A stretch of DNA of 64,000 nucleotides from Brachyhypopomus gauderio (taxonomy: Eukaryota; Chordata; Actinopteri; Gymnotiformes; Hypopomidae): the NCBI RefSeq assembly GCF_052324685.1, contig NW_027507041.1:62001-126000 (forward strand), given 5' to 3'. Numbering within the stretch: position 1 is the stretch's first letter; each line of letters begins with the position of its first letter. Made by a program: the position numbers and the translations under genes. The notes under the pieces were generated by a model. That model had not been told where the DNA came from and ran no database searches. It was given only the letters and a program-made list of their open reading frames with translations. Shown here piece after piece: positions 664-42,612 of this stretch.

Positions 664-673
664 TGCTAGCCAG

Positions 674-1015: not shown

Positions 1016-1021
1016 GAGGGT

Positions 1022-1929: not shown

Positions 1930-1937
1930 GCAAAAGC

Positions 1938-18813: not shown

Positions 18814-18885
18814 CTCCTCGTCGGGGAATCGAACCCCGGTCTTCCACGTAACAGGCGGAGATACTATCCACTATACTAACGAGGA
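18814..18885 (-). tRNA. tRNA with Asp body and Asn anticodon (GTT), unit 10, form N
   Basis: The body is that of the neighbouring tRNA-Asp genes, but the loop reads CTGTTAC: anticodon GTT (bases 18,850-18,852 on +), which reads Asn codons AAU/AAC. Two further changes come with it: C40 to T, leaving a G30:U40 wobble, and G69 to A, turning the U4:G69 wobble of the acceptor into U4:A69. T-stem, A box, B box, G73 and the TTTT terminator are intact, so it should be made and fold. In eukaryotes AspRS depends on C36 and AsnRS reads GUU with G73, so charging with Asn is the likely outcome; mischarging with Asp cannot be excluded. A true vertebrate tRNA-Asn (starting GTCTCTGTGG) has a quite different body. 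Confidence 0.9.
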
Positions 18886-19648
18886 CACGTGCTGTGTCTC
18901 GCAGTGATGCTGAGTCAGGTGACGTGCACTTGTCCCCTTGATTTTAAAGTACTCTGAATCATTGTGCCTGCAAGGAGGTGGTAAAAAGAACACATTGTGG
19001 TGATATTGACTCACTGTTGCCACTCCTCTTTTACCATCGTCAGTTTGTGGACTTATGATTGGAAAAACTCAAAGAATCTTGGTGACCTACAGGTTTGATT
19101 CATCTGCCTTCCTAGTTAAGTCATGCGAACCATTTGCTGCAAAATTGGCTTTAGCTACATTGGCAATTCATTTTGTCTTCGTATTCCAGTGCATTGTAGC
19201 GAACTGCAATATCCATCTTAGATCAACTGAGATTTTGCATTTCTCTCTTTCCCACATGCAAGTTCTGAATTTCTTGGCACACATTACTGCTTTGCATCTA
19301 CTAAAAGCACTCCAGAGAAAGCTTCACTTCATACCTTCATGAGGTAGGTGTCGTTTGTACTTGTATTTTGGTGGTATTTTTGTTTTTTTTTTTGTTTGTG
19401 TGCGTTGTTTGTCTACTCTTGGAACATCCTGTGATTGGTTAGGGTAGGATTAGAGTTTAATTACGTTGGCCTCAGATTCTGGTTAATTCCAGGCTTCTTG
19501 TGCTAACCTTGTTGTTTGTTAGCTGTTGTTGGCAGTAATTAGTTGCTGCAGGTGCACTTGCCGCCATGCTCCAAGGAGTGAATTGGGGGCGGATACATTT
19601 TTTCTCCAGCTTTGTTAGTTCTTCCTCAGCCTCGCTTCTTCTTTCCTA

Positions 19649-19721
19649 GCCTCGTTAGCGCAGTAGGTAGCGCGTCAGTCTCATAATCTGAAGGTCGTGA
19701 GTTCGACCCTCACACGGGGCA
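19649..19721 (+). tRNA. tRNA-Met-CAT: tRNA-Met(CAT), unit 10
   Basis: Standard body; followed by the C insertion seen also in unit 3. Confidence 0.95.
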
Positions 19722-20305
19722 GCAGAAGCTTTTTGAAAAGATTGACGAGCCCCCAAAAGATGCTCAAACGCTCTTTCCTTATTCACTCGCATGCTGAGCA
19801 CACCCCCTACCCTGAAAATAGTATTGGCACATGACTCTTACAGGTCATCCCTAGTTGATTCAAGCTGTGCTTTTTCTTTTGTAAATTCGCGTGTACACAG
19901 CAAGTTGTGTTGCATCCAATTCAATTCTCTCCACTGACCGTTCAGTCAATACCTTGATGGCGTCTGTATTGACACCTCTACTGAGACATCAAGCTGCCTC
20001 TTTGGAGCATGTTCGCTCCCAGATCAAACTGCAGTGTCGTGGTGCCAACACAGAATAATGGACCACGTCGGACACTTTTCACTTTTGATTCTTTTTGATT
20101 CACTTTTGATGACACGCTTTTGAATACCTGATCACCTGGAATTGGTACCAGCTTGAAGTTAATAGTGAGTAGACTTATGGAGATTCATTTATTTGAATTT
20201 TCTACTCAAGCCATTTGCAACTCAGAAGCAATGACACTTGTGCACTCATCATTGAGCTTGAGGAAGTCCAAGGAATTGATCTCTATGTTACTCTCGCTCC
20301 TCCGA

Positions 20306-20387
20306 ACTGCGATGGCCTAGAGGTTAAGGCGTTGGACTTGAAATCCAATGGGGTTTCCCCGCGCAGGTTCGACTCCTGCTTGCAGCG
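20306..20387 (+). tRNA. tRNA-Ser-TGA: tRNA-Ser(TGA), unit 11, form A
   Basis: Form A body. Confidence 0.92.
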
Positions 20388-20791
20388 TGAGTGTCTTGTT
20401 GGGAGTGTGGAAAGAGAGAGTGTGCTCTCTTCCTGCTAGCCAGTTTTAAATATGCTTCTCATGCCATTTGCAACTTTGTGCTGCCAAACTTTAGCAGTCC
20501 TAACTGATCCTGAAATAGTCCCAGGAATTGAGTTACAAATGGCTGCTTTGTCGTTACAATGTGTTGGCATGGAAATGCAGTGGGGTCTCTTGCAGCGTAG
20601 AGGATTAACTTGCCTCTCTAATGTGATTTGTGATGAGACCTTATGCCACCAGTGGGGAGAGCTTGCACTCACAGGTGCTTCATCCAAAGATCTTCATGCA
20701 ACATAGCGATGTCTTGTTTCAGGTAAAAGAAAAAGTGCCACATTCTTTCATGGCTGGTCACTGGTTGCTCCGCCTTGCGCTAAAAGAGGGT

Positions 20792-20863
20792 CTCCCCGTC
20801 TGGGAATCGAACCCCAGTCTTCCGCGTGACAGGCGGAGATACTATCCACTATACTAACGAGGA
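20792..20863 (-). tRNA. tRNA-Asp-GTC: tRNA-Asp(GTC), unit 11, form M with extra T49
   Basis: It carries A64 like other form M copies plus C49 to T. In the normal register the T-stem then has T49:G65 and G50:A64; a one-base shift would give CTGGG/CCCAG with five Watson-Crick pairs but an oversized loop. The weakest-looking Asp copy. Confidence 0.85.
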
Positions 20864-21628
20864 CACGTGCTGTGTCTTGCAGTGATGCTGAGTCAGGTGA
20901 CGTGCACTTGTCCCCTTGATTTTAAAGTACTCTGAATCATTGTGCCTGCAAGGAGGTGGTAAAAAGAACACATTGTGGTGATATTGACTCACTGTTGCCA
21001 TTCCTCTTTTACCATCGTCAGTTTGTGGACTTATGATAGGAAAAACTCAAAGAATCTTGGTGACCTACAGGTTTGATTCATCTGCCTTCCTAGTTAAGTC
21101 ATGCAAACCATTTGCTGCAAAATTGGCTTTAGCTACATTGGCAATTCATTTTGTCTTTGTATTCCAGTGCATTGTACCGAACTGCAATATCCATCTTAGA
21201 TCAACTGAGATTTTGCATTTCTCTCTTTCCCACATGCAAGTTCTGAATTTCTTGGCACACATTACTGCTTTGCATCTACTAAAAGCACTCCAGAGAAAGC
21301 TTCACTTCATACCTTCATGAGGTAGGTGTCGTTTGTACTTGTATTTTGGTGGTATTTTTGTTTTTTTTTTTTTGTTTGTGTGCGTTGTTTGTCTACTCTT
21401 GGAACATCCTGTGATTGGTTAGGGTAGGATTAGAGTTTAATTACGTTGGCCTCAGATTCTGGTTAATTCCAGGCTTCTTGTGCTAACCTTGTTGTTTGTT
21501 AGCTGTTGTTGGCAGTAATTAGTTGCTGCAGGTGCACTTGCCGCCATGCTCCAAGGAGTGAATTGGGGGCGGATACATTTTTTCTCCAGCTTTGTTAGTT
21601 CTTCCTCAGCCTCGCTTCTTCTTTCCTA

Positions 21629-21701
21629 GCCTCGTTAGCGCAGTAGGTAGCGCGTCAGTCTCATAATCTGAAGGTCGTGAGTTCGACCCTCACACGGGGC
21701 A
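21629..21701 (+). tRNA. tRNA-Met-CAT: tRNA-Met(CAT), unit 11
   Basis: Standard body; the preceding T-run near 21,360 is the longest of the array. Confidence 0.95.
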
Positions 21702-22284
21702 GCAGAAGCTTTTTGAAAAGATTGACGAGCCCCCAAAAGATGCTCAAACGCTCTTTCCTTATTCACTCGCATGCTGAGCACACCCCCTACCTGAAAATAG
21801 TATTGGCACATGACTCTTACAGGTCATCCCTAGTTGATTCAAGCTGTGCTTTTTCTTTTGTAAATTCGCGTGTGCACAGCAAGTTGTGTTGCATCCAATT
21901 CAATTCTCTCCACTGACCGTTCAGTCAATACCTTGATGGCGTCTGTATTGACACCTCTACTGAGACATCAAGCTGCCTCTTTGGAGCATGTTTGCTCCCA
22001 GATCAAACTGCAGTGTCGTGGTGCCAACACAGAATAATGGACCACGTCGGACACTTTTCACTTTTGATTCTTTTTGATTCACTTTTGATGACACGCTTTT
22101 GAATACCTGATCACCTGGAATTGGTACCAGCTTGAAGTTAATAGTGAGTAGACTTATGGAGATTCATTTATTTGAATTTTCTTCTCAAGCCATTTGCAAC
22201 TCAGAAGCAATGACACTTGTGCACTCATCATTGAGCTTGAGGAAGTCCAAGGAATTGATCTCTATGTTACTCTCGCTCCGCCGA

Positions 22285-22366
22285 GCTGCGATGGCCGAGA
22301 GGTTAAGGCGTTGGACTTGAAATCCAATGGGGTTTCCCCGCGCAGGTTCGACTCCTGCTTGCAGTG
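22285..22366 (+). tRNA. tRNA-Ser-TGA: tRNA-Ser(TGA), unit 12, form B with T72
   Basis: The 3' end reads TTGCAGTG, giving G1:U72. Shared with units 16 and 19, marking the start of the higher-order block. Confidence 0.93.
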
Positions 22367-22770
22367 TGAGTGTCTTGTTGGGCGTGTGGAAAGAGAGAGT
22401 GTGCTCTCTTCCTGCTAGCCAGTTTTAAATATGCTTCTCATGCCATTTGCAACTTTGTGCTGCCAAACTTTAGCAGTCCTAACTGATCCTGAAATAGTCC
22501 CAGGAATTGAGTTACAAATGGCTGCTTCGTCGTTACAATGTGTTGGCATGGAAATGCAGTGGGGTCTCTTGCAGCTTAGAGGATTAACTTGCCTCTCTAA
22601 TGTGATTTGTGATGAGACCTTATGCCACCAGTGGGGAGAGCTTGCACTCACAGGTGCTTCATCCAAAGATCTTCATGCAACATAGTGATGTCTTGTTTCA
22701 GGTAAAAGAAAAAGTGCCACATTCTTTCATGGCCGGTCACTGGTTGCTCCGCCTTGCGCTAAAAGAGGGT

Positions 22771-22842
22771 CTCCCCGTCGGGGAATCGAACCCCGGTCTT
22801 CCGCGTGACAGGCGGAGATACTATCCACTATACTAACGAGGA
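22771..22842 (-). tRNA. tRNA-Asp-GTC: tRNA-Asp(GTC), unit 12, form C
   Basis: Canonical body. Confidence 0.96.
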
Positions 22843-23605
22843 CACGTGCTGTGTCTCGCAGTGATGCTGAGTCAGGTGACGTGCACTTGTCCCCTTGATT
22901 TTAAAGTACTCTGAATCATTGTGCCTGCAAGGAGGTGGTAAAAAGAACACATTGTGGTGATATTGACTCACTGTTGCCACTCCTCTTTTACCATCGTCAG
23001 TTTGTGGACTTATGATAGGAAAAACTCAAAGAATCTTGGTGACCTACAAGTTTGATTCATCTGCCTTCCTAGTTAAGTCATGCAAACCATTTGCTGCAAA
23101 ATTGGCTTTAGCTACATTGGCAATTCATTTTGTCTTCGTATTCCAGTGCATTGTACCGAACTGCAATATCCATCTTAGATCAACTGAGATTTTGCATTTC
23201 TCTCTTTCCCACATGCAAGTTCTGAATTTCTTGGCACACATTACTGCTTTGCATCTACTAAAAGCACTCCAGAGAAAGCTTCACTTCATACCTTCATGAG
23301 GTAGGTGTCGTTTGTACTTGTATTTTGGTGGTATTTTTGTTTTTTTTTTTGTTTGTGTGCGTTGTTTGTCTACTCTTGGAACATCCTGTGATTGGTTAGG
23401 GTAGGATTAGAGTTTAATTACGTTGGCCTCAGATTCTGGTTAATTCCAGGCTTCTTGTGCTAACCTTGTTGTTTGTTAGCTGTTGTTGGCAGTAATTAGT
23501 TGCTGCAGGTGCACTTGCCGCCATGCTCCAAGGAGTGAATTGGGGGCGGATAAATTTTTTCTCCAGCTTTGTTAGTTCTTCCTCAGCCTCGCTTCTTCTT
23601 TCCTA

Positions 23606-23678
23606 GCCTCGTTAGCGCAGTAGGTAGCGTGTCAGTCTCATAATCTGAAGGTCGTGAGTTCGACCCTCACACGGGGCA
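23606..23678 (+). tRNA. tRNA-Met-CAT: tRNA-Met(CAT), unit 12, T25 variant
   Basis: GTAGCGTGTC in place of GTAGCGCGTC: C25 to T gives a G10:U25 wobble in the D-stem. Shared with units 16 and 19. Confidence 0.93.
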
Positions 23679-24261
23679 GCAAAAGCTTTTTGAAAAGATT
23701 GACGAGCCCCCAAAAGATGCTCAAACGCTCTTTCCTTATTCACTCGCATGCTGAGCACACCCCCTACCTGAAAATAGTATTGGCACATGACTCTTACAGG
23801 TCATCCCTAGTTGATTCAAGCTGTGCTTTTTCTTTTGTAAATTCGCGTGTACACAGCAAGTTGTGTTGCATCCAATTCAATTCTCTCCACTGACCGTTCA
23901 GTCAATACCTTGATGGCGTCTGTATTGACACCTCTACTGAGACATCAAGCTGCCTCTTTGGAGCATGTTCGCTCCCAGATCAAATTGCAGTGTCGTGGTG
24001 CCAACACAGAATAATGGACCACGTCGGACACTTTTCACTTTTGATTCTTTTTGATTCACTTTTGATGACACGCTTTTGAATACCTGATCACCTGGAATTG
24101 GTACCAGCTTGAAGTTAATAGTGAGTAGACTTATGGAGATTCATTTATTTGAATTTTCTACTCAAGCCATTTGCAACTCAGAAGCAATGACACTTGTGCA
24201 CTCATCATTGAGCTTGAGGAAGTCCAAGGAATTGATCTCTATGTTACTCTCGCTCCTCCGA

Positions 24262-24343
24262 ACTGCGATGGCCTAGAGGTTAAGGCGTTGGACTTGAAAT
24301 CCAATGGGGTTTCCCCGCGCAGGTTCGACTCCTGCTTGCAGCG
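24262..24343 (+). tRNA. tRNA-Ser-TGA: tRNA-Ser(TGA), unit 13, form A
   Basis: Form A body. Confidence 0.92.
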
Positions 24344-24747
24344 TGAGTGTCTTGTTGGGAGTGTGGAAAGAGAGAGTGTGCTCTCTTCCTGCTAGCCAGT
24401 TTTAAATATGCTTCTCATGCCATTTGCAACTTTGTGCTGCCAAACTTTAGCAGTCCTAACTGATCCTGAAATAGTCCCAGGAATTGAGTTACAAATGGCT
24501 GCTTTGTCGTTACAATGTGTTGGCATGGAAATGCAGTGGGGTCTCTTGCAGCGTAGAGGATTAACTTGCCTCTCTAATGTGATTTGTGATGAGACCTTAT
24601 GCCACCAGTGGGGAGAGCTTGCACTCACAGGTGCTTCATCCAAAGATCTTCATGCAACATAGCGATGTCTTGTTTCAGGTAAAAGAAAAAGTGCCACATT
24701 CTTTCATGGCTGGTCACTGGTTGCTCCGCCTTGCGCTAAAAGAGGGT

Positions 24748-24819
24748 CTCCCCGTCTGGGAATCGAACCCCGGTCTTCCGCGTGACAGGCGGAGATACTA
24801 TCCACTATACTAACGAGGA
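24748..24819 (-). tRNA. tRNA-Asp-GTC: tRNA-Asp(GTC), unit 13, form M
   Basis: G50:A64 mismatch. Confidence 0.92.
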
Positions 24820-25582
24820 CACGTGCTGTGTCTTGCAGTGATGCTGAGTCAGGTGACGTGCACTTGTCCCCTTGATTTTAAAGTACTCTGAATCATTGTG
24901 CCTGCAAGGAGGTGGTAAAAAGAACACATTGTGGTGATATTGACTCACTGTTGCCATTCCTCTTTTACCATCATCAGTTTGTGGACTTATGATAGGAAAA
25001 ACTCAAAGAATCTTGGTGACCTACAGGTTTGATTCATCTGCCTTCCTAGTTAAGTCATGCAAACCATTTGCTGCAAAATTGGCTTTAGCTACATTGGCAA
25101 TTCATTTTGTCTTTGTATTCCAGTGCATTGTACCGAACTGCAATATCCATCTTAGATCAACTGAGATTTTGCATTTCTCTCTTTCCCACATGCAAGTTCT
25201 GAATTTCTTGGCACACATTACTGCTTTGCATCTACTAAAAGCACTCCAGAGAAAGCTTCACTTCATACCTTCATGAGGTAGGTGTCGTTTGTACTTGTAT
25301 TTTGGTGGTATTTTTGTTTTTTTTTTTGTTTGTGTGCGTTGTTTGTCTACTCTTGGAACATCCTGTGATTGGTTAGGGTAGGATTAGAGTTTAATTACGT
25401 TGGCCTCAGATTCTGGTTAATTCCAGGCTTCTTGTGCTAACCTTGTTGTTTGTTAGCTGTTGTTGGCAGTAATTAGTTGCTGCAGGTGCACTTGCCGCCA
25501 TGCTCCAAGGAGTGAATTGGGGGCGGATACATTTTTTCTCCAGCTTTGTTAGTTCTTCCTCAGCCTCGCTTCTTCTTTCCTA

Positions 25583-25655
25583 GCCTCGTTAGCGCAGTAG
25601 GTAGCGCGTCAGTCTCATAATCTGAAGGTCGTGAGTTCGACCCTCACACGGGGCA
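25583..25655 (+). tRNA. tRNA-Met-CAT: tRNA-Met(CAT), unit 13
   Basis: Standard body. Confidence 0.95.
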
Positions 25656-26238
25656 GCAGAAGCTTTTTGAAAAGATTGACGAGCCCCCAAAAGATGCTCA
25701 AACGCTCTTTCCTTATTCACTCGCATGCTGAGCACACCCCCTACCTGAAAATAGTATTGGCACATGACTCTTACAGGTCATCCCTAGTTGATTCAAGCTG
25801 TGCTTTTTCTTTTGTAAATTCGCGTGTGCACAGCAAGTTGTGTTGCATCCAATTCAATTCTCTCCACTGACCGTTCAGTCAATACCTTGATGGCGTCTGT
25901 ATTGACACCTCTACTGAGACATCAAGCTGCCTCTTTGGAGCATGTTTGCTCCCAGATCAAACTGCAGTGTCGTGGAGCCAACACAGAATAATGGACCACG
26001 TCGGACACTTTTCACTTTTGATTCTTTTTGATTCACTTTTGATGACACGCTTTTGAATACCTGATCACCTGGAATTGGTACCAGCTTGAAGTTAATAGTG
26101 AGTAGACTTATGGAGATTCATTTATTTGAATTTTCTTCTCAAGCCATTTGCAACTCAGAAGCAATGACACTTGTGCACTCATCATTGAGCTTGAGGAAGT
26201 CCAAGGAATTGATCTCTATGTTACTCTCGCTCCGCCGA

Positions 26239-26320
26239 GCTGCGATGGCCGAGAGGTTAAGGCGTTGGACTTGAAATCCAATGGGGTTTCCCCGCGCAGG
26301 TTCGACTCCTGCTTGCAGCG
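26239..26320 (+). tRNA. tRNA-Ser-TGA: tRNA-Ser(TGA), unit 14, form B
   Basis: Form B body. Confidence 0.96.
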
Positions 26321-26724
26321 TGAGTGTCTTGTTGGGCGTGTGGAAAGAGAGAGTGTGCTCTCTTCCTGCTAGCCAGTTTTAAATATGCTTCTCATGCCAT
26401 TTGCAACTTTGTGCTGCCAAACTTTAGCAGTCCTAACTGATCCTGAAATAGTCCCAGGAATTGAGTTACAAATGGCTGCTTCGTCGTTACAATGTGTTGG
26501 CATGGAAATGCAGTGGGGTCTCTTGCAGCTTAGAGGATTAACTTGCCTCTCTAATGTGATTTGTGATGAGACCTTATGCCACCAGTGGGGAGAGCTTGCA
26601 CTCACAGGTGCTTCATCCAAAGATTTTCATGCAACATAGCGATGTCTTGTTTCAGGTAAAAGAAAAAGTGCCACATTCTTTCATGGCCGGTCACTGGTTG
26701 CTCCGCCTTGCGCTAAAAGAGGGT

Positions 26725-26796
26725 CTCCTCGTCGGGGAATCGAACCCCGGTCTTCCACGTAACAGGCGGAGATACTATCCACTATACTAACGAGGA
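26725..26796 (-). tRNA. tRNA with Asp body and Asn anticodon (GTT), unit 14, form N
   Basis: Same three changes as unit 10 (T36, T40, A69); anticodon at 26,761-26,763. Confidence 0.9.
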
Positions 26797-27559
26797 CACG
26801 TGCTGTGTCTCGCAGTGATGCTGAGTCAGGTGACGTGCACTTGTCCCCTTGATTTTAAAGTACTCTGAATCATTGTGCCTGCAAGGAGGTGGTAAAAAGA
26901 ACACATTGTGGTGATATTGACTCACTGTTGCCACTCCTCTTTTACCATCGTCAGTTTGTGGACTTATGATTGGAAAAACTCAAAGAATCTTGGTGACCTA
27001 CAGGTTTGATTCATCTGCCTTCCTAGTTAAGTCATGCGAACCATTTGCTGCAAAATTGGCTTTAGCTACATTGGCAATTCATTTTGTCTTCGTATTCCAG
27101 TGCATTGTAGCGAACTGCAATATCCATCTTAGATCAACTGAGATTTTGCATTTCTCTCTTTCCCACATGCAAGTTCTGAATTTCTTGGCACACATTACTG
27201 CTTTGCATCTACTAAAAGCACTCCAGAGAAAGCTTCACTTCATACCTTCATGAGGTAGGTGTCGTTTGTACTTGTATTTTGGTGGTATTTTTGTTTTTTT
27301 TTTTGTTTGTGTGCGTTGTTTGTCTACTCTTGGAACATCCTGTGATTGGTTAGGGTAGGATTAGAGTTTAATTACGTTGGCCTCAGATTCTGGTTAATTC
27401 CAGGCTTCTTGTGCTAACCTTGTTGTTTGTTAGCTGTTGTTGGCAGTAATTAGTTGCTGCAGGTGCACTTGCCGCCATGCTCCAAGGAGTGAATTGGGGG
27501 CGGATACATTTTTTCTCCAGCTTTGTTAGTTCTTCCTCAGCCTCGCTTCTTCTTTCCTA

Positions 27560-27632
27560 GCCTCGTTAGCGCAGTAGGTAGCGCGTCAGTCTCATAATCT
27601 GAAGGTCGTGAGTTCGACCCTCACACGGGGCA
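27560..27632 (+). tRNA. tRNA-Met-CAT: tRNA-Met(CAT), unit 14
   Basis: Standard body. Confidence 0.95.
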
Positions 27633-28215
27633 GCAGAAGCTTTTTGAAAAGATTGACGAGCCCCCAAAAGATGCTCAAACGCTCTTTCCTTATTCACTCG
27701 CATGCTGAGCACACCCCCTACCTGAAAATAGTATTGGCACATGACTCTTACAGGTCATCCCTAGTTGATTCAAGCTGTGCTTTTTCTTTTGTAAATTCGC
27801 GTGTACACAGCAAGTTGTGTTGCATCCAATTCAATTCTCTCCACTGACCGTTCAGTCAATACCTTGATGGCGTCTGTATTGACACCTCTACTGAGACATC
27901 AAGCTGCCTCTTTGGAGCATGTTTGCTCCCAGATCAAACTGCAGTGTCGTGGAGCCAACACAGAATAATGGACCACGTCGGACACTTTTCACTTTTGATT
28001 CTTTTTGATTCACTTTTGATGACACGCTTTTGAATACCTGATCACCTGGAATTGGTACCAGCTTGAAGTTAATAGTGAGTAGACTTATGGAGATTCATTT
28101 ATTTGAATTTTCTTCTCAAGCCATTTGCAACTCAGAAGCAATGACACTTGTGCACTCATCATTGAGCTTGAGGAAGTCCAAGGAATTGATCTCTATGTTA
28201 CTCTCGCTCCGCCGA

Positions 28216-28297
28216 GCTGCGATGGCCGAGAGGTTAAGGCGTTGGACTTGAAATCCAATGGGGTTTCCCCGCGCAGGTTCGACTCCTGCTTGCAGCG
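28216..28297 (+). tRNA. tRNA-Ser-TGA: tRNA-Ser(TGA), unit 15, form B
   Basis: Form B body. Confidence 0.96.
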
Positions 28298-28701
28298 TGA
28301 GTGTCTTGTTGGGCGTGTGGAAAGAGAGAGTGTGCTCTCTTCCTGCTAGCCAGTTTTAAATATGCTTCTCATGCCATTTGCAACTTTGTGCTGCCAAACT
28401 TTAGCAGTCCTAACTGATCCTGAAATAGTCCCAGGAATTGAGTTACAAATGGCTGCTTCGTCGTTACAATGTGTTGGCATGGAAATGCAGTGGGGTCTCT
28501 TGCAGCTTAGAGGATTAACTTGCCTCTCTAATGTGATTTGTGATGAGACCTTATGCCACCAGTGGGGAGAGCTTGCACTCACAGGTGCTTCATCCAAAGA
28601 TTTTCATGCAACATAGCGATGTCTTGTTTCAGGTAAAAGAAAAAGTGCCACATTCTTTCATGGCCGGTCACTGGTTGCTCCGCCTTGCGCTAAAAGAGGG
28701 T

Positions 28702-28773
28702 CTCCTCGTCGGGGAATCGAACCCCGGTCTTCCACGTAACAGGCGGAGATACTATCCACTATACTAACGAGGA
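28702..28773 (-). tRNA. tRNA with Asp body and Asn anticodon (GTT), unit 15, form N
   Basis: Anticodon at 28,738-28,740; adjacent to another form N unit, so the pair 14-15 is a local duplication. Confidence 0.9.
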
Positions 28774-29536
28774 CACGTGCTGTGTCTCGCAGTGATGCTG
28801 AGTCAGGTGACGTGCACTTGTCCCCTTGATTTTAAAGTACTCTGAATCATTGTGCCTGCAAGGAGGTGGTAAAAAGAACACATTGTGGTGATATTGACTC
28901 ACTGTTGCCACTCCTCTTTTACCATCGTCAGTTTGTGGACTTATGATTGGAAAAACTCAAAGAATCTTGGTGACCTACAGGTTTGATTCATCTGCCTTCC
29001 TAGTTAAGTCATGCGAACCATTTGCTGCAAAATTGGCTTTAGCTACATTGGCAATTCATTTTGTCTTCGTATTCCAGTGCATTGTAGCGAACTGCAATAT
29101 CCATCTTAGATCAACTGAGATTTTGCATTTCTCTCTTTCCCACATGCAAGTTCTGAATTTCTTGGCACACATTACTGCTTTGCATCTACTAAAAGCACTC
29201 CAGAGAAAGCTTCACTTCATACCTTCATGAGGTAGGTGTCGTTTGTACTTGTATTTTGGTGGTATTTTTGTTTTTTTTTTTGTTTGTGTGCGTTGTTTGT
29301 CTACTCTTGGAACATCCTGTGATTGGTTAGGGTAGGATTAGAGTTTAATTACGTTGGCCTCAGATTCTGGTTAATTCCAGGCTTCTTGTGCTAACCTTGT
29401 TGTTTGTTAGCTGTTGTTGGCAGTAATTAGTTGCTGCAGGTGCACTTGCCGCCATGCTCCAAGGAGTGAATTGGGGGCGGATACATTTTTTCTCCAGCTT
29501 TGTTAGTTCTTCCTCAGCCTCGCTTCTTCTTTCCTA

Positions 29537-29609
29537 GCCTCGTTAGCGCAGTAGGTAGCGCGTCAGTCTCATAATCTGAAGGTCGTGAGTTCGACCCTCA
29601 CACGGGGCA
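29537..29609 (+). tRNA. tRNA-Met-CAT: tRNA-Met(CAT), unit 15
   Basis: Standard body. Confidence 0.95.
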
Positions 29610-31586: not shown

Positions 31587-32169
31587 GCAAAAGCTTTTTG
31601 AAAAGATTGACGAGCCCCCAAAAGATGCTCAAACGCTCTTTCCTTATTCACTCGCATGCTGAGCACACCCCCTACCTGAAAATAGTATTGGCACATGACT
31701 CTTACAGGTCATCCCTAGTTGATTCAAGCTGTGCTTTTTCTTTTGTAAATTCGCGTGTACACAGCAAGTTGTGTTGCATCCAATTCAATTCTCTCCACTG
31801 ACCGTTCAGTCAATACCTTGATGGCGTCTGTATTGACACCTCTACTGAGACATCAAGCTGCCTCTTTGGAGCATGTTCGCTCCCAGATCAAATTGCAGTG
31901 TCGTGGTGCCAACACAGAATAATGGACCACGTCGGACACTTTTCACTTTTGATTCTTTTTGATTCACTTTTGATGACACGCTTTTAAATACCTGATCACC
32001 TGGAATTGGTACCAGCTTGAAGTTAATAGTGAGTAGACTTATGGAGATTCATTTATTTGAATTTTCTACTCAAGCCATTTGCAACTCAGAAGCAATGACA
32101 CTTGTGCACTCATCATTGAGCTTGAGGAAGTCCAAGGAATTGATCTCTATGTTACTCTCGCTCCTCCGA

Positions 32170-32251
32170 ACTGCGATGGCCTAGAGGTTAAGGCGTTGGA
32201 CTTGAAATCCAATGGGGTTTCCCCGCGCAGGTTCGACTCCTGCTTGCAGCG
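32170..32251 (+). tRNA. tRNA-Ser-TGA: tRNA-Ser(TGA), unit 17, form A
   Basis: Form A body; the spacer before it has the private TTTTAAATACC variant (31,982) shared only with unit 20. Confidence 0.92.
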
Positions 32252-32655
32252 TGAGTGTCTTGTTGGGAGTGTGGAAAGAGAGAGTGTGCTCTCTTCCTGC
32301 TAGCCAGTTTTAAATATGCTTCTCATGCCATTTGCAACTTTGTGCTGCCAAACTTTAGCAGTCCTAACTGATCCTGAAATAGTCCCAGGAATTGAGTTAC
32401 AAATGGCTGCTTTGTCGTTACAATGTGTTGGCATGGAAATGCAGTGGGGTCTCTTGCAGCGTAGAGGATTAACTTGCCTCTCTAATGTGATTTGTGATGA
32501 GACCTTATGCCACCAGTGGGGAGAGCTTGCACTCACAGGTGCTTCATCCAAAGATCTTCATGCAACATAGCGATGTCTTGTTTCAGGTAAAAGAAAAAGT
32601 GCCACATTCTTTCATGGCTGGTCACTGGTTGCTCCGCCTTGCGCTAAAAGAGGGT

Positions 32656-32727
32656 CTCCCCGTCTGGGAATCGAACCCCGGTCTTCCGCGTGACAGGCGG
32701 AGATACTATCCACTATACTAACGAGGA
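32656..32727 (-). tRNA. tRNA-Asp-GTC: tRNA-Asp(GTC), unit 17, form M
   Basis: G50:A64 mismatch. Confidence 0.92.
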
Positions 32728-33490
32728 CACGTGCTGTGTCTTGCAGTGATGCTGAGTCAGGTGACGTGCACTTGTCCCCTTGATTTTAAAGTACTCTGAA
32801 TCATTGTGCCTGCAAGGAGGTGGTAAAAAGAACACATTGTGGTGATATTGACTCACTGTTGCCATTCCTCTTTTACCATCGTCAGTTTGTGGACTTATGA
32901 TAGGAAAAACTCAAAGAATCTTGGTGACCTACAGGTTTGATTCATCTGCCTTCCTAGTTAAGTCATGCAAACCATTTGCTGCAAAATTGGCTTTAGCTAC
33001 ATTGGCAATTCATTTTGTCTTTGTATTCCAGTGCATTGTACCGAACTGCAATATCCATCTTAGATCAACTGAGATTTTGCATTTCTCTCTTTCCCACATG
33101 CAAGTTCTGAATTTCTTGGCACACATTACTGCTTTGCATCTACTAAAAGCACTCCAGAGAAAGCTTCACTTCATACCTTCATGAGGTAGGTGTCGTTTGT
33201 ACTTGTATTTTGGTGGTATTTTTGTTTTTTTTTTTGTTTGTGTGCGTTGTTTGTCTACTCTTGGAACATCCTGTGATTGGTTAGGGTAGGATTAGAGTTT
33301 AATTACGTTGGCCTCAGATTCTGGTTAATTCCAGGCTTCTTGTGCTAACCTTGTTGTTTGTTAGCTGTTGTTGGCAGTAATTAGTTGCTGCAGGTGCACT
33401 TGCCGCCATGCTCCAAGGAGTGAATTGGGGGCGGATACATTTTTTCTCCAGCTTTGTTAGTTCTTCCTCAGCCTCGCTTCTTCTTTCCTA

Positions 33491-33563
33491 GCCTCGTTAG
33501 CGCAGTAGGTAGCGCGTCAGTCTCATAATCTGAAGGTCGTGAGTTCGACCCTCACACGGGGCA
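33491..33563 (+). tRNA. tRNA-Met-CAT: tRNA-Met(CAT), unit 17
   Basis: Standard body. Confidence 0.95.
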
Positions 33564-34146
33564 GCAGAAGCTTTTTGAAAAGATTGACGAGCCCCCAAAA
33601 GATGCTCAAACGCTCTTTCCTTATTCACTCGCATGCTGAGCACACCCCCTACCTGAAAATAGTATTGGCACATGACTCTTACAGGTCATCCCTAGTTGAT
33701 TCAAGCTGTGCTTTTTCTTTTGTAAATTCGCGTGTGCACAGCAAGTTGTGTTGCATCCAATTCAATTCTCTCCACTGACCGTTCAGTCAATACCTTGATG
33801 GCGTCTGTATTGACACCTCTACTGAGACATCAAGCTGCCTCTTTGGAGCATGTTTGCTCCCAGATCAAACTGCAGTGTCGTGGAGCCAACACAGAATAAT
33901 GGACCACGTCGGACACTTTTCACTTTTGATTCTTTTTGATTCACTTTTGATGACACGCTTTTGAATACCTGATCACCTGGAATTGGTACCAGCTTGAAGT
34001 TAATAGTGAGTAGACTTATGGAGATTCATTTATTTGAATTTTCTTCTCAAGCCATTTGCAACTCAGAAGCAATGACACTTGTGCACTCATCATTGAGCTT
34101 GAGGAAGTCCAAGGAATTGATCTCTATGTTACTCTCGCTCCGCCGA

Positions 34147-34228
34147 GCTGCGATGGCCGAGAGGTTAAGGCGTTGGACTTGAAATCCAATGGGGTTTCCC
34201 CGCGCAGGTTCGACTCCTGCTTGCAGCG
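34147..34228 (+). tRNA. tRNA-Ser-TGA: tRNA-Ser(TGA), unit 18, form B
   Basis: Form B body. Confidence 0.96.
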
Positions 34229-34632
34229 TGAGTGTCTTGTTGGGCGTGTGGAAAGAGAGAGTGTGCTCTCTTCCTGCTAGCCAGTTTTAAATATGCTTCT
34301 CATGCCATTTGCAACTTTGTGCTGCCAAACTTTAGCAGTCCTAACTGATCCTGAAATAGTCCCAGGAATTGAGTTACAAATGGCTGCTTCGTCGTTACAA
34401 TGTGTTGGCATGGAAATGCAGTGGGGTCTCTTGCAGCTTAGAGGATTAACTTGCCTCTCTAATGTGATTTGTGATGAGACCTTATGCCACCAGTGGGGAG
34501 AGCTTGCACTCACAGGTGCTTCATCCAAAGATTTTCATGCAACATAGCGATGTCTTGTTTCAGGTAAAAGAAAAAGTGCCACATTCTTTCATGGCCGGTC
34601 ACTGGTTGCTCCGCCTTGCGCTAAAAGAGGGT

Positions 34633-34704
34633 CTCCTCGTCGGGGAATCGAACCCCGGTCTTCCACGTAACAGGCGGAGATACTATCCACTATACTAACG
34701 AGGA
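34633..34704 (-). tRNA. tRNA with Asp body and Asn anticodon (GTT), unit 18, form N
   Basis: Anticodon at 34,669-34,671; T36, T40 and A69 all present. Confidence 0.9.
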
Positions 34705-35467
34705 CACGTGCTGTGTCTCGCAGTGATGCTGAGTCAGGTGACGTGCACTTGTCCCCTTGATTTTAAAGTACTCTGAATCATTGTGCCTGCAAGGAGGTGG
34801 TAAAAAGAACACATTGTGGTGATATTGACTCACTGTTGCCACTCCTCTTTTACCATCGTCAGTTTGTGGACTTATGATTGGAAAAACTCAAAGAATCTTG
34901 GTGACCTACAGGTTTGATTCATCTGCCTTCCTAGTTAAGTCATGCGAACCATTTGCTGCAAAATTGGCTTTAGCTACATTGGCAATTCATTTTGTCTTCG
35001 TATTCCAGTGCATTGTAGCGAACTGCAATATCCATCTTAGATCAACTGAGATTTTGCATTTCTCTCTTTCCCACATGCAAGTTCTGAATTTCTTGGCACA
35101 CATTACTGCTTTGCATCTACTAAAAGCACTCCAGAGAAAGCTTCACTTCATACCTTCATGAGGTAGGTGTCGTTTGTACTTGTATTTTGGTGGTATTTTT
35201 GTTTTTTTTTTTGTTTGTGTGCGTTGTTTGTCTACTCTTGGAACATCCTGTGATTGGTTAGGGTAGGATTAGAGTTTAATTACGTTGGCCTCAGATTCTG
35301 GTTAATTCCAGGCTTCTTGTGCTAACCTTGTTGTTTGTTAGCTGTTGTTGGCAGTAATTAGTTGCTGCAGGTGCACTTGCCGCCATGCTCCAAGGAGTGA
35401 ATTGGGGGCGGATACATTTTTTCTCCAGCTTTGTTAGTTCTTCCTCAGCCTCGCTTCTTCTTTCCTA

Positions 35468-35540
35468 GCCTCGTTAGCGCAGTAGGTAGCGCGTCAGTCT
35501 CATAATCTGAAGGTCGTGAGTTCGACCCTCACACGGGGCA
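35468..35540 (+). tRNA. tRNA-Met-CAT: tRNA-Met(CAT), unit 18
   Basis: Standard body. Confidence 0.95.
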
Positions 35541-36123
35541 GCAGAAGCTTTTTGAAAAGATTGACGAGCCCCCAAAAGATGCTCAAACGCTCTTTCCTTA
35601 TTCACTCGCATGCTGAGCACACCCCCTACCTGAAAATAGTATTGGCACATGACTCTTACAGGTCATCCCTAGTTGATTCAAGCTGTGCTTTTTCTTTTGT
35701 AAATTCGCGTGTACACAGCAAGTTGTGTTGCATCCAATTCAATTCTCTCCACTGACCGTTCAGTCAATACCTTGATGGCGTCTGTATTGACACCTCTACT
35801 GAGACATCAAGCTGCCTCTTTGGAGCATGTTCGCTCCCAGATCAAACTGCAGTGTCGTGGTGCCAACACAGAATAATGGACCACGTCGGACACTTTTCAC
35901 TTTTGATTCTTTTTGATTCACTTTTGATGACACGCTTTTGAATACCTGATCACCTGGAATTGGTACCAGCTTGAAGTTAATAGTGAGTAGACTTATGGAG
36001 ATTCATTTATTTGAATTTTCTTCTCAAGCCATTTGCAACTCAGAAGCAATGACACTTGTGCACTCATCATTGAGCTTGAGGAAGTCCAAGGAATTGATCT
36101 CTATGTTACTCTCGCTCCGCCGA

Positions 36124-36205
36124 GCTGCGATGGCCGAGAGGTTAAGGCGTTGGACTTGAAATCCAATGGGGTTTCCCCGCGCAGGTTCGACTCCTGCTTG
36201 CAGTG
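36124..36205 (+). tRNA. tRNA-Ser-TGA: tRNA-Ser(TGA), unit 19, form B with T72
   Basis: G1:U72, exactly 5,931 bp after its unit 16 counterpart. Confidence 0.93.
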
Positions 36206-36609
36206 TGAGTGTCTTGTTGGGCGTGTGGAAAGAGAGAGTGTGCTCTCTTCCTGCTAGCCAGTTTTAAATATGCTTCTCATGCCATTTGCAACTTTGTGCT
36301 GCCAAACTTTAGCAGTCCTAACTGATCCTGAAATAGTCCCAGGAATTGAGTTACAAATGGCTGCTTCGTCGTTACAATGTGTTGGCATGGAAATGCAGTG
36401 GGGTCTCTTGCAGCTTAGAGGATTAACTTGCCTCTCTAATGTGATTTGTGATGAGACCTTATGCCACCAGTGGGGAGAGCTTGCACTCACAGGTGCTTCA
36501 TCCAAAGATCTTCATGCAACATAGTGATGTCTTGTTTCAGGTAAAAGAAAAAGTGCCACATTCTTTCATGGCCGGTCACTGGTTGCTCCGCCTTGCGCTA
36601 AAAGAGGGT

Positions 36610-36681
36610 CTCCCCGTCGGGGAATCGAACCCCGGTCTTCCGCGTGACAGGCGGAGATACTATCCACTATACTAACGAGGA
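36610..36681 (-). tRNA. tRNA-Asp-GTC: tRNA-Asp(GTC), unit 19, form C
   Basis: Canonical body. Confidence 0.96.
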
Positions 36682-37444
36682 CACGTGCTGTGTCTCGCAG
36701 TGATGCTGAGTCAGGTGACGTGCACTTGTCCCCTTGATTTTAAAGTACTCTGAATCATTGTGCCTGCAAGGAGGTGGTAAAAAGAACACATTGTGGTGAT
36801 ATTGACTCACTGTTGCCACTCCTCTTTTACCATCGTCAGTTTGTGGACTTATGATAGGAAAAACTCAAAGAATCTTGGTGACCTACAAGTTTGATTCATC
36901 TGCCTTCCTAGTTAAGTCATGCAAACCATTTGCTGCAAAATTGGCTTTAGCTACATTGGCAATTCATTTTGTCTTCGTATTCCAGTGCATTGTACCGAAC
37001 TGCAATATCCATCTTAGATCAACTGAGATTTTGCATTTCTCTCTTTCCCACATGCAAGTTCTGAATTTCTTGGCACACATTACTGCTTTGCATCTACTAA
37101 AAGCACTCCAGAGAAAGCTTCACTTCATACCTTCATGAGGTAGGTGTCGTTTGTACTTGTATTTTGGTGGTATTTTTGTTTTTTTTTTTGTTTGTGTGCG
37201 TTGTTTGTCTACTCTTGGAACATCCTGTGATTGGTTAGGGTAGGATTAGAGTTTAATTACGTTGGCCTCAGATTCTGGTTAATTCCAGGCTTCTTGTGCT
37301 AACCTTGTTGTTTGTTAGCTGTTGTTGGCAGTAATTAGTTGCTGCAGGTGCACTTGCCGCCATGCTCCAAGGAGTGAATTGGGGGCGGATAAATTTTTTC
37401 TCCAGCTTTGTTAGTTCTTCCTCAGCCTCGCTTCTTCTTTCCTA

Positions 37445-37517
37445 GCCTCGTTAGCGCAGTAGGTAGCGTGTCAGTCTCATAATCTGAAGGTCGTGAGTTC
37501 GACCCTCACACGGGGCA
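37445..37517 (+). tRNA. tRNA-Met-CAT: tRNA-Met(CAT), unit 19, T25 variant
   Basis: G10:U25 wobble. Confidence 0.93.
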
Positions 37518-38100
37518 GCAAAAGCTTTTTGAAAAGATTGACGAGCCCCCAAAAGATGCTCAAACGCTCTTTCCTTATTCACTCGCATGCTGAGCACACC
37601 CCCTACCTGAAAATAGTATTGGCACATGACTCTTACAGGTCATCCCTAGTTGATTCAAGCTGTGCTTTTTCTTTTGTAAATTCGCGTGTACACAGCAAGT
37701 TGTGTTGCATCCAATTCAATTCTCTCCACTGACCGTTCAGTCAATACCTTGATGGCGTCTGTATTGACACCTCTACTGAGACATCAAGCTGCCTCTTTGG
37801 AGCATGTTCGCTCCCAGATCAAATTGCAGTGTCGTGGTGCCAACACAGAATAATGGACCACGTCGGACACTTTTCACTTTTGATTCTTTTTGATTCACTT
37901 TTGATGACACGCTTTTAAATACCTGATCACCTGGAATTGGTACCAGCTTGAAGTTAATAGTGAGTAGACTTATGGAGATTCATTTATTTGAATTTTCTAC
38001 TCAAGCCATTTGCAACTCAGAAGCAATGACACTTGTGCACTCATCATTGAGCTTGAGGAAGTCCAAGGAATTGATCTCTATGTTACTCTCGCTCCTCCGA

Positions 38101-38182
38101 ACTGCGATGGCCTAGAGGTTAAGGCGTTGGACTTGAAATCCAATGGGGTTTCCCCGCGCAGGTTCGACTCCTGCTTGCAGCG
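38101..38182 (+). tRNA. tRNA-Ser-TGA: tRNA-Ser(TGA), unit 20, form A
   Basis: Form A body, with the TTTTAAATACC spacer marker at about 37,913. Confidence 0.92.
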
Positions 38183-38586
38183 TGAGTGTCTTGTTGGGAG
38201 TGTGGAAAGAGAGAGTGTGCTCTCTTCCTGCTAGCCAGTTTTAAATATGCTTCTCATGCCATTTGCAACTTTGTGCTGCCAAACTTTAGCAGTCCTAACT
38301 GATCCTGAAATAGTCCCAGGAATTGAGTTACAAATGGCTGCTTTGTCGTTACAATGTGTTGGCATGGAAATGCAGTGGGGTCTCTTGCAGCGTAGAGGAT
38401 TAACTTGCCTCTCTAATGTGATTTGTGATGAGACCTTATGCCACCAGTGGGGAGAGCTTGCACTCACAGGTGCTTCATCCAAAGATCTTCATGCAACATA
38501 GCGATGTCTTGTTTCAGGTAAAAGAAAAAGTGCCACATTCTTTCATGGCTGGTCACTGGTTGCTCCGCCTTGCGCTAAAAGAGGGT

Positions 38587-38658
38587 CTCCCCGTCTGGGA
38601 ATCGAACCCCGGTCTTCCGCGTGACAGGCGGAGATACTATCCACTATACTAACGAGGA
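38587..38658 (-). tRNA. tRNA-Asp-GTC: tRNA-Asp(GTC), unit 20, form M
   Basis: G50:A64 mismatch. Confidence 0.92.
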
Positions 38659-39421
38659 CACGTGCTGTGTCTTGCAGTGATGCTGAGTCAGGTGACGTGC
38701 ACTTGTCCCCTTGATTTTAAAGTACTCTGAATCATTGTGCCTGCAAGGAGGTGGTAAAAAGAACACATTGTGGTGATATTGACTCACTGTTGCCATTCCT
38801 CTTTTACCATCGTCAGTTTGTGGACTTATGATAGGAAAAACTCAAAGAATCTTGGTGACCTACAGGTTTGATTCATCTGCCTTCCTAGTTAAGTCATGCA
38901 AACCATTTGCTGCAAAATTGGCTTTAGCTACATTGGCAATTCATTTTGTCTTTGTATTCCAGTGCATTGTACCGAACTGCAATATCCATCTTAGATCAAC
39001 TGAGATTTTGCATTTCTCTCTTTCCCACATGCAAGTTCTGAATTTCTTGGCACACATTACTGCTTTGCATCTACTAAAAGCACTCCAGAGAAAGCTTCAC
39101 TTCATACCTTCATGAGGTAGGTGTCGTTTGTACTTGTATTTTGGTGGTATTTTTGTTTTTTTTTTTGTTTGTGTGCGTTGTTTGTCTACTCTTGGAACAT
39201 CCTGTGATTGGTTAGGGTAGGATTAGAGTTTAATTACGTTGGCCTCAGATTCTGGTTAATTCCAGGCTTCTTGTGCTAACCTTGTTGTTTGTTAGCTGTT
39301 GTTGGCAGTAATTAGTTGCTGCAGGTGCACTTGCCGCCATGCTCCAAGGAGTGAATTGGGGGCGGATACATTTTTTCTCCAGCTTTGTTAGTTCTTCCTC
39401 AGCCTCGCTTCTTCTTTCCTA

Positions 39422-39494
39422 GCCTCGTTAGCGCAGTAGGTAGCGCGTCAGTCTCATAATCTGAAGGTCGTGAGTTCGACCCTCACACGGGGCA
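39422..39494 (+). tRNA. tRNA-Met-CAT: tRNA-Met(CAT), unit 20
   Basis: Standard body. Confidence 0.95.
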
Positions 39495-40077
39495 GCAGAA
39501 GCTTTTTGAAAAGATTGACGAGCCCCCAAAAGATGCTCAAACGCTCTTTCCTTATTCACTCGCATGCTGAGCACACCCCCTACCTGAAAATAGTATTGGC
39601 ACATGACTCTTACAGGTCATCCCTAGTTGATTCAAGCTGTGCTTTTTCTTTTGTAAATTCGCGTGTGCACAGCAAGTTGTGTTGCATCCAATTCAATTCT
39701 CTCCACTGACCGTTCAGTCAATACCTTGATGGCGTCTGTATTGACACCTCTACTGAGACATCAAGCTGCCTCTTTGGAGCATGTTTGCTCCCAGATCAAA
39801 CTGCAGTGTCGTGGAGCCAACACAGAATAATGGACCACGTCGGACACTTTTCACTTTTGATTCTTTTTGATTCACTTTTGATGACACGCTTTTGAATACC
39901 TGATCACCTGGAATTGGTACCAGCTTGAAGTTAATAGTGAGTAGACTTATGGAGATTCATTTATTTGAATTTTCTTCTCAAGCCATTTGCAACTCAGAAG
40001 CAATGACACTTGTGCACTCATCATTGAGCTTGAGGAAGTCCAAGGAATTGATCTCTATGTTACTCTCGCTCCGCCGA

Positions 40078-40159
40078 GCTGCGATGGCCGAGAGGTTAAG
40101 GCGTTGGACTTGAAATCCAATGGGGTTTCCCCGCGCAGGTTCGACTCCTGCTTGCAGCG
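40078..40159 (+). tRNA. tRNA-Ser-TGA: tRNA-Ser(TGA), unit 21, form B
   Basis: Form B body. Confidence 0.96.
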
Positions 40160-40563
40160 TGAGTGTCTTGTTGGGCGTGTGGAAAGAGAGAGTGTGCTCT
40201 CTTCCTGCTAGCCAGTTTTAAATATGCTTCTCATGCCATTTGCAACTTTGTGCTGCCAAACTTTAGCAGTCCTAACTGATCCTGAAATAGTCCCAGGAAT
40301 TGAGTTACAAATGGCTGCTTCGTCGTTACAATGTGTTGGCATGGAAATGCAGTGGGGTCTCTTGCAGCTTAGAGGATTAACTTGCCTCTCTAATGTGATT
40401 TGTGATGAGACCTTATGCCACCAGTGGGGAGAGCTTGCACTCACAGGTGCTTCATCCAAAGATTTTCATGCAACATAGCGATGTCTTGTTTCAGGTAAAA
40501 GAAAAAGTGCCACATTCTTTCATGGCCGGTCACTGGTTGCTCCGCCTTGCGCTAAAAGAGGGT

Positions 40564-40635
40564 CTCCTCGTCGGGGAATCGAACCCCGGTCTTCCACGTA
40601 ACAGGCGGAGATACTATCCACTATACTAACGAGGA
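40564..40635 (-). tRNA. tRNA with Asp body and Asn anticodon (GTT), unit 21, form N
   Basis: Anticodon at 40,600-40,602. Confidence 0.9.
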
Positions 40636-41398
40636 CACGTGCTGTGTCTCGCAGTGATGCTGAGTCAGGTGACGTGCACTTGTCCCCTTGATTTTAAAGT
40701 ACTCTGAATCATTGTGCCTGCAAGGAGGTGGTAAAAAGAACACATTGTGGTGATATTGACTCACTGTTGCCACTCCTCTTTTACCATCGTCAGTTTGTGG
40801 ACTTATGATTGGAAAAACTCAAAGAATCTTGGTGACCTACAGGTTTGATTCATCTGCCTTCCTAGTTAAGTCATGCGAACCATTTGCTGCAAAATTGGCT
40901 TTAGCTACATTGGCAATTCATTTTGTCTTCGTATTCCAGTGCATTGTAGCGAACTGCAATATCCATCTTAGATCAACTGAGATTTTGCATTTCTCTCTTT
41001 CCCACATGCAAGTTCTGAATTTCTTGGCACACATTACTGCTTTGCATCTACTAAAAGCACTCCAGAGAAAGCTTCACTTCATACCTTCATGAGGTAGGTG
41101 TCGTTTGTACTTGTATTTTGGTGGTATTTTTGTTTTTTTTTTTGTTTGTGTGCGTTGTTTGTCTACTCTTGGAACATCCTGTGATTGGTTAGGGTAGGAT
41201 TAGAGTTTAATTACGTTGGCCTCAGATTCTGGTTAATTCCAGGCTTCTTGTGCTAACCTTGTTGTTTGTTAGCTGTTGTTGGCAGTAATTAGTTGCTGCA
41301 GGTGCACTTGCCGCCATGCTCCAAGGAGTGAATTGGGGGCGGATACATTTTTTCTCCAGCTTTGTTAGTTCTTCCTCAGCCTCGCTTCTTCTTTCCTA

Positions 41399-41471
41399 GC
41401 CTCGTTAGCGCAGTAGGTAGCGCGTCAGTCTCATAATCTGAAGGTCGTGAGTTCGACCCTCACACGGGGCA
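41399..41471 (+). tRNA. tRNA-Met-CAT: tRNA-Met(CAT), unit 21
   Basis: Standard body. Confidence 0.95.
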
Positions 41472-42054
41472 GCAGAAGCTTTTTGAAAAGATTGACGAGC
41501 CCCCAAAAGATGCTCAAACGCTCTTTCCTTATTCACTCGCATGCTGAGCACACCCCCTACCTGAAAATAGTATTGGCACATGACTCTTACAGGTCATCCC
41601 TAGTTGATTCAAGCTGTGCTTTTTCTTTTGTAAATTCGCGTGTACACAGCAAGTTGTGTTGCATCCAATTCAATTCTCTCCACTGACCGTTCAGTCAATA
41701 CCTTGATGGCGTCTGTATTGACACCTCTACTGAGACATCAAGCTGCCTCTTTGGAGCATGTTTGCTCCCAGATCAAACTGCAGTGTCGTGGAGCCAACAC
41801 AGAATAATGGACCACGTCGGACACTTTTCACTTTTGATTCTTTTTGATTCACTTTTGATGACACGCTTTTGAATACCTGATCACCTGGAATTGGTACCAG
41901 CTTGAAGTTAATAGTGAGTAGACTTATGGAGATTCATTTATTTGAATTTTCTTCTCAAGCCATTTGCAACTCAGAAGCAATGACACTTGTGCACTCATCA
42001 TTGAGCTTGAGGAAGTCCAAGGAATTGATCTCTATGTTACTCTCGCTCCGCCGA

Positions 42055-42136
42055 GCTGCGATGGCCGAGAGGTTAAGGCGTTGGACTTGAAATCCAATGG
42101 GGTTTCCCCGCGCAGGTTCGACTCCTGCTTGCAGCG
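42055..42136 (+). tRNA. tRNA-Ser-TGA: tRNA-Ser(TGA), unit 22, form B
   Basis: Form B body. Confidence 0.96.
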
Positions 42137-42540
42137 TGAGTGTCTTGTTGGGCGTGTGGAAAGAGAGAGTGTGCTCTCTTCCTGCTAGCCAGTTTTAAAT
42201 ATGCTTCTCATGCCATTTGCAACTTTGTGCTGCCAAACTTTAGCAGTCCTAACTGATCCTGAAATAGTCCCAGGAATTGAGTTACAAATGGCTGCTTCGT
42301 CGTTACAATGTGTTGGCATGGAAATGCAGTGGGGTCTCTTGCAGCTTAGAGGATTAACTTGCCTCTCTAATGTGATTTGTGATGAGACCTTATGCCACCA
42401 GTGGGGAGAGCTTGCACTCACAGGTGCTTCATCCAAAGATTTTCATGCAACATAGCGATGTCTTGTTTCAGGTAAAAGAAAAAGTGCCACATTCTTTCAT
42501 GGCCGGTCACTGGTTGCTCCGCCTTGCGCTAAAAGAGGGT

Positions 42541-42612
42541 CTCCTCGTCGGGGAATCGAACCCCGGTCTTCCACGTAACAGGCGGAGATACTATCCACTA
42601 TACTAACGAGGA
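42541..42612 (-). tRNA. tRNA with Asp body and Asn anticodon (GTT), unit 22, form N
   Basis: Anticodon at 42,577-42,579; last form N copy before the array switches to form C. Confidence 0.9.

Follow-up and report, generated by a model that had tools for sequence, protein, structure and literature searches.

An Asp-to-Asn anticodon-shift allele, probably neutral, in a tandem tRNA gene array of Brachyhypopomus gauderio

Analysis of a 64,000-nucleotide stretch of the Brachyhypopomus gauderio genome (hereafter the window; C197:62001-126000 in an assembly of 796.5 Mb and 840 contigs) revealed a tandem array of tRNA genes in which some copies of tRNA-Asp carry the asparagine anticodon GTT. The array occupies positions 1..55854 and consists of units of ~1,977 bp, 28 of them full, together with part of a 29th; its start lies near C197:27691, before the window begins, and its end within the window lies at ~55,854. 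Each unit carries a tRNA-Ser(TGA) gene on the plus strand, a tRNA-Asp gene on the minus strand and a tRNA-Met(CAT) gene on the plus strand, and ARAGORN identified 84 tRNA genes in the window, that is three in each of the 28 units. Comparison with Rfam indicated that only tRNAs reached the gathering score in the window.

The tRNA-Asp position was called as tRNA-Asn(gtt) by ARAGORN in units 10, 14, 15, 18, 21 and 22, and alignment and Rfam confirmed an Asp body with a GTT anticodon at 18814..18885, 26725..26796, 28702..28773, 34633..34704, 40564..40635 and 42541..42612, respectively, all on the minus strand. The six genes are identical to one another, and C36T, C40T and G69A are all that separates them from the main GTC form; the existence and coordinates of these genes and the linkage of the three changes in the same copies, proposed in an earlier note made from the sequence alone, were thus confirmed. 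The GTT gene shares 69/72 positions with the GTC tRNA-Asp of the array and 44 identities over 74 positions with the canonical tRNA-Asn of the genome. Its body is therefore nearer to tRNA-Asp than to the tRNAs that share its anticodon, as is expected of an alloacceptor shift.

The comparison also covered 160 kb of contig C134 and a further 40 kb of C197; 119 units were cut from the two contigs, of which 117 were compared after two gappy rows had been dropped. Six further GTT copies were found on C134, three of them with an additional C64T change that keeps the pairing. The GTT form was present in 6/28 units of the window, in 6/45 of the units from the C197 part and in 6/74 of those from the C134 part.

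The GTT copies look structurally intact. The Rfam tRNA model, whose gathering score is 29, gave 56.4 bits for the GTT form, 57.5 for the intact GTC form and 51.0 for GTC copies with C64A; unit 11 scored 47.8. The cloverleaf pairs of the GTT form are retained, including G30:U40 and U4:A69, as is G73, and the calculated cloverleaf energies were -23.5 kcal/mol for GTT, -24.5 for GTC and -18.3 for the C64A copies. The predicted lowest-energy fold of the unmodified RNA is, for GTT and GTC alike, a slightly different one lying 0.5 kcal/mol below the cloverleaf, so that the unmodified prediction does not separate the two. A TTTT stretch, as expected of a terminator for RNA polymerase III (Pol III), lies downstream of 12/12 GTT copies on the two contigs (18804..18807 on the minus strand for unit 10), and the 5' leader takes one form in 11/12 of them and another in 1/12, both forms occurring on GTC copies as well. 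The GTT copies show none of the marks of a tRNA pseudogene, such as disrupted stems or a missing promoter or terminator, and none of the 12 has a broken pair. The GTT form is predicted to keep a stable tRNA structure, and since it retains the requirements for Pol III and for tRNA folding, it could yield a tRNA. The intact terminator, G73, T-stem and pairing described in the earlier note were borne out by these checks; so was its statement that the T-stem damage of many GTC copies is missing from the GTT copies of the window, where the 22 GTC copies comprise 11 intact genes and 11 with the C64A T-stem mismatch, unit 11 carrying C49T in addition.

Alignment of the whole units pointed to a common source of the GTT copies. 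The six GTT units of the window differ at 0-2 sites across the whole unit, and among the 117 units seven states that depart from the consensus are common to all 12 GTT copies, at columns 243, 272, 826, 921, 1025, 1053 and 1057. The states at columns 921, 1025 (G69A) and 1057 (C36T) are private to GTT units, while that at column 1053 (C40T) occurs in one further, non-GTT unit. The 12 copies are not uniform at column 124 or at ten substitution columns from 1107 onwards. The stretch common to all GTT copies is at least ~815 bp long (columns 243-1057), and a shared core as short as ~137 bp was ruled out. Since one haplotype is found over this stretch in all 12 copies, they most likely trace back to one event followed by copying; a single origin with recombination around the shared stretch is the simplest reading of the alignment. 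Whole-unit copying within the array was evident from exact blocks, units 16-17-18 being identical to 19-20-21 and units 14-15 to 21-22, with 0 differences (units 14-22, 25704..43496). An allele with C36T, C40T and G69A on one haplotype would thus have reached 12 copies as gene conversion and unequal exchange turned over the array.

We asked whether C40T could have been the first step towards the GTT form. The unit that carries C40T alone has 4/12 GTT-type states (826, 1053, 1334 and 1387, column 1053 being C40T itself) and is mostly on another background, so that an independent CpG change is likelier than an intermediate, and C40T was rejected as a first step. The same unit bears on the possibility that the three changes arrived jointly, by conversion from a diverged Asp-like gene. 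That the private changes of the window copies cluster within 33 bp would fit such an import, but C40T alone on another background is what recurrent CpG mutation would be expected to give, and no donor was found: the GTT form was seen only on C134 and C197 among the 18 DNA-search matches listed, the exact GTT pattern is limited to the same two contigs, and the Asp genes in four short loci elsewhere are all GTC (four on C119 and C9, one on C3). No Asp gene was found by ARAGORN in the locus on C5. We regard an imported variant as markedly improbable.

An assembly or sequencing artefact was also considered, since near-identical repeats are difficult to assemble and the exact block repeats could be assembly duplications. 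Against this, the three linked changes occur together on both C134 and C197, and the units carrying them differ from one another at as many as 10 sites, which makes a single-site error unlikely; three GTT copies form a sub-variant with C64T. An artefact appears extremely improbable.

Searches with exact patterns indicated how rare the GTT form is in the genome. The GTT pattern was found 12 times, six on C197, six on C134 and nowhere else (control 0), and the GTC pattern in 575 genes (control 0); both counts are lower bounds, since the patterns do not pick up copies altered within them. The GTT form accounts for ~2% of the Asp-bodied genes counted. The GTC places among the matches listed all fell within C3:41.67-41.90 Mb, close to the end of a contig of 41.98 Mb, and Asp genes of the same array type, with spacings near 1,977 and 1,660 bp, were observed among the matches listed at C3:41666500-41899545. 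The canonical Asn anticodon-arm pattern gave 334 matches at <=2 mismatches, compared with 1 for the reversed-pattern control; those listed were on C1 and C136. A gene-level check of these matches, covering eight loci on C1, showed that the loci hold Asn(GTT) and Lys(CTT) genes with a spacing near 1,387 bp. These belong to a tandem Asn(GTT)/Lys(CTT) array with a unit of ~1,387 bp at about 1.725-1.737 Mb of C1 (L033-L040), in which two Asn forms make up 18 and 5 of 23 gene calls, some double-counted since the loci overlap; the rarer form has one T-loop change and an altered base beside the discriminator.

The frequencies of other alleles in the array were then compared with that of the GTT form. 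Among the 117 units the pair-breaking alleles Ser A1/T13 and Asp A64 occur in 43 and 38, respectively, and the GTT form in 12. The earlier statement that the GTT gene had been amplified to 6 of 28 copies is right for the window and holds locally only, given 12 GTT against 575 GTC genes in the genome; a special amplification of the form is not supported, given the greater frequency of damaged alleles in the same units. Variable sites were more frequent in the tRNA genes (26/227) than in the spacers (72/1,750; P=2e-5). After separation of CpG sites the difference was no longer significant, neither at CpG sites (17/44 in tRNA genes and 18/66 in spacers, P=0.22) nor at non-CpG sites (9/183 and 54/1,684, P=0.28), and the idea of faster evolution of the array tRNA genes was dropped, so that hypermutation is not claimed. 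Judged from these alignments, the array tRNA genes appear to have no visible extra conservation over the spacers. Given 26 variable tRNA sites, the probability of at least one hit in the nine anticodon bases is ~0.65.

Taken together, the GTT form is probably a young, structurally intact Asp-to-Asn shift allele of one origin that was copied by array turnover and is neutral; neutrality is likely because it makes up a small fraction of the Asp-bodied genes and is far outnumbered by canonical Asn genes, and because damaged alleles reach higher frequencies. We infer that it has low or no expression. Several observations weigh against this reading. In the window, 3/7 of the GTT-private substitutions lie within the 72-bp gene (P=0.0015, post hoc); a scan for three of the seven changes within any 33-bp place gave the weaker value P=0.026, and three private fixed sites remain in the set of 117 units, so selection was not inferred from this clustering. 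Both changes at paired sites keep the pairing, as does C64T in the three copies that carry it, although retention of pairing is weak evidence because the GTT copies share descent. Gene sequences are not uniform in the canonical Asn/Lys array either, with 4 substitution sites in its two genes and 6 in the spacer among 8 units; the constraint test is therefore a poor guide to function and shows only that individual copies look dispensable. Finally, the genes behind zebrafish egg tRNAs are reported to lie in highly repetitive regions (PMC11417395), and by analogy a comparable array may be transcribed in oocytes.

Other variation was observed along the array. The tRNA-Ser(TGA) gene carries G1A, which gives an A1:C72 mismatch, together with G13T in 12 units of the window (1-3, 5-9, 11, 13, 17 and 20). 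Other loop changes of tRNA-Asp in the C134 and C197 units are C38T (one unit), C40T alone (one) and T55G (two). One array unit contains an insertion of ~4.5 kb within its tRNA-Ser gene, at C134:100876-105426 (L009:876-5426); the unit coordinates overlap by 5 bp, resembling a target-site duplication, and the insertion has a longest open frame of 336 aa and internal direct repeats of 137 bp and 123 bp. The right flank of the array (56142-63278 of the window) holds many minisatellites, with periods of 70, 92, 107, 117, 184, 187 and 229 bp, and the sub-threshold matches to microRNA families of Rfam in this flank are probably due to chance, on putatively palindromic repeats. The array Asp signature had no match in IMG/VR, and GTGGTRAGTATCCCCGCC had no occurrence in the genome.

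The identity elements of the GTT form were compared with published sets. In the passages of PMC9976931 drawn on here, the determinants of tRNA-Asp are G73, G34, U35, C36 and C38, and the Asn set consists of the GUU anticodon and G73 for bacteria and, in the text, for yeast, the eukaryotic Asn entry of the table being empty. The earlier proposal that a single anticodon base could have moved the gene from Asp to Asn decoding is supported as far as C36 is an Asp determinant and the Asn set, GUU with G73, is present in the GTT form. The anticodon loop of the GTT form reads CTGTTAC (U36-A37-C38) and that of the canonical tRNA-Asn of the genome CTGTTAA (U36-A37-A38). The latter motif is described as the universal determinant of N6-threonylcarbamoyladenosine (t6A) in the portion of PMC9654439 used, and the GTT form, with C38, lacks this loop motif of functional tRNA-Asn. 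If transcribed, the GTT form would, from its sequence, be a hybrid tRNA having the Asn anticodon and G73 with C38 in place of A38. Asparaginyl-tRNA synthetase (AsnRS) would be expected to charge it in part, through GUU and G73, while t6A37 would be weak because of C38 and some residual access of aspartyl-tRNA synthetase (AspRS) may persist. The suggestion that C40 belongs to the context of DNMT2 substrates was neither supported nor contradicted in the literature passages.

Two functional roles may be weighed against these elements. As a working Asn isoacceptor the GTT form would be transcribed, charged by AsnRS and read AAC/AAU, adding to the egg-stage or another tRNA pool. The GUU anticodon, G73, C32, kept pairing, leader and terminator are all compatible with such a role, an exon of cytosolic-type AsnRS is present on C28 (59/68 residues identical to the cytoplasmic AsnRS chain 8tc7), and the zebrafish egg tRNAs mentioned above likewise derive from repetitive arrays. 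The role is nevertheless unlikely in view of C38 in place of A38, the lack of any sign of preferential spread and the 334 canonical Asn arm matches compared with 12 GTT genes; with these numbers the Asn supply hardly depends on the GTT genes, and the supply of Asn tRNA suggested in the earlier note is not supported as a meaningful contribution.

Alternatively, the GTT form could still be charged by AspRS and insert Asp at some Asn codons. It keeps G73, G34, U35, C38 and G10:U25 of the determinants listed in PMC9976931, where t6A37 of yeast tRNA-Asn is given as an antideterminant against AspRS; with C38 kept, and t6A37 probably lacking, it could be more accessible to AspRS than true tRNA-Asn. 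The need for A38 in t6A formation is indicated, besides PMC9654439, by the account of Xenopus oocytes in PMC3814370, where U36 and A38 are required besides A37, and by human mitochondrial tRNA-Thr, in which A38 is needed and not replaceable (PMC7102964). In Drosophila, alloacceptor shifts with unchanged bodies led the authors to suggest ancestral charging (PMC7919458). On the other hand, the main Asp determinant C36 is lost, AsnRS competes, and the oocyte work is described differently in PMC7102964, according to which U36 alone is absolutely required besides A37, so that C38 may not block t6A. A mistranslating tRNA seems quite unlikely.

A combination of the two was also considered, in which the array is an egg-stage source of tRNAs and the GTT hybrid, without t6A and charged by both AsnRS and AspRS, gives low-level Asp at Asn codons in oocytes or early embryos; this is very improbable. 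On the side of the neutral reading, the passages of PMC11574265 used here describe nearly complete CpG methylation of the tRNA genes of large clusters in zebrafish early embryos, and the spacer CpG observed/expected value of 0.41 suggests that the present array may be methylated in the germline. There is a small chance that the GTT form has a role in eggs. Separately from the AsnRS exon on C28, one long open frame was observed on C6 near 33.02 Mb (L049:1-2514; 1,307 aa by genome search, 837 aa in the locus), joining an Asparaginase_2 domain, a HIT domain and a class II synthetase domain also matched by the AsnRS model.

Nuclear alloacceptor shifts have been surveyed by Rogers and Griffiths-Jones (2014; PMC3923123), who kept 31 after filtering. 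In the parts of that survey consulted, these resemble the GTT form in having a body of one identity, a single-base anticodon change and often extra changes elsewhere; they are found among orthologues, whereas the GTT form was seen among tandem paralogues and copied to 12 places, and the Asp-Asn pair is not named in those parts of the text. The zebrafish tandem tRNA clusters (PMC11417395, PMC11574265) are, like the present array, very large and repetitive. The Asp genes on C9 and C119 contain the exact complement of the zebrafish Asp-GUC-2 probe (GGACAGTATCTCCGC) and the array copies match 14/15 of its bases, which, like the AsnRS exon, agrees with a fish origin; the passages of the two papers on Asp-GTC-1/-2 do not state the maternal Asp isodecoder or mention a GTT form. 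In Drosophila, shifts within clusters (PMC7919458) and a shift from Asn to Lys (PMC7884595) show, like the GTT form, a derived anticodon on an ancestral body with the structure retained. They differ in being few and in single genes, PMC7884595 concerning another amino-acid pair and the passages of PMC7919458 naming no Asp/Asn case. The Arabidopsis SYY cluster (PMC12308677) is likewise made of tandem tRNA units, mostly silent and functional from a transgene; it differs in being a plant cluster of Ser/Tyr genes, with no anticodon shift in the passages considered. A literature search on fish tRNA expansions gave no papers, and no Asp-bodied GTT tRNA was seen in the titles and opening abstract lines listed for Asp/Asn mistranslation and fish isotype mismatch; no wider absence is claimed.

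The GTT form is a real and apparently young Asp-to-Asn shift of a kind described in PMC3923123. It offers a clean natural test of tRNA identity change, with one anticodon base altered, an Asp body nearly whole and internal controls in the same array. Expression of the form would allow one to see, in an animal, whether the choice between AspRS and AsnRS rests on C38 and t6A37. Should it prove silent, it would be a good example of anticodon variants accumulating in tandem tRNA arrays, and a warning not to equate gene copy number with tRNA supply.

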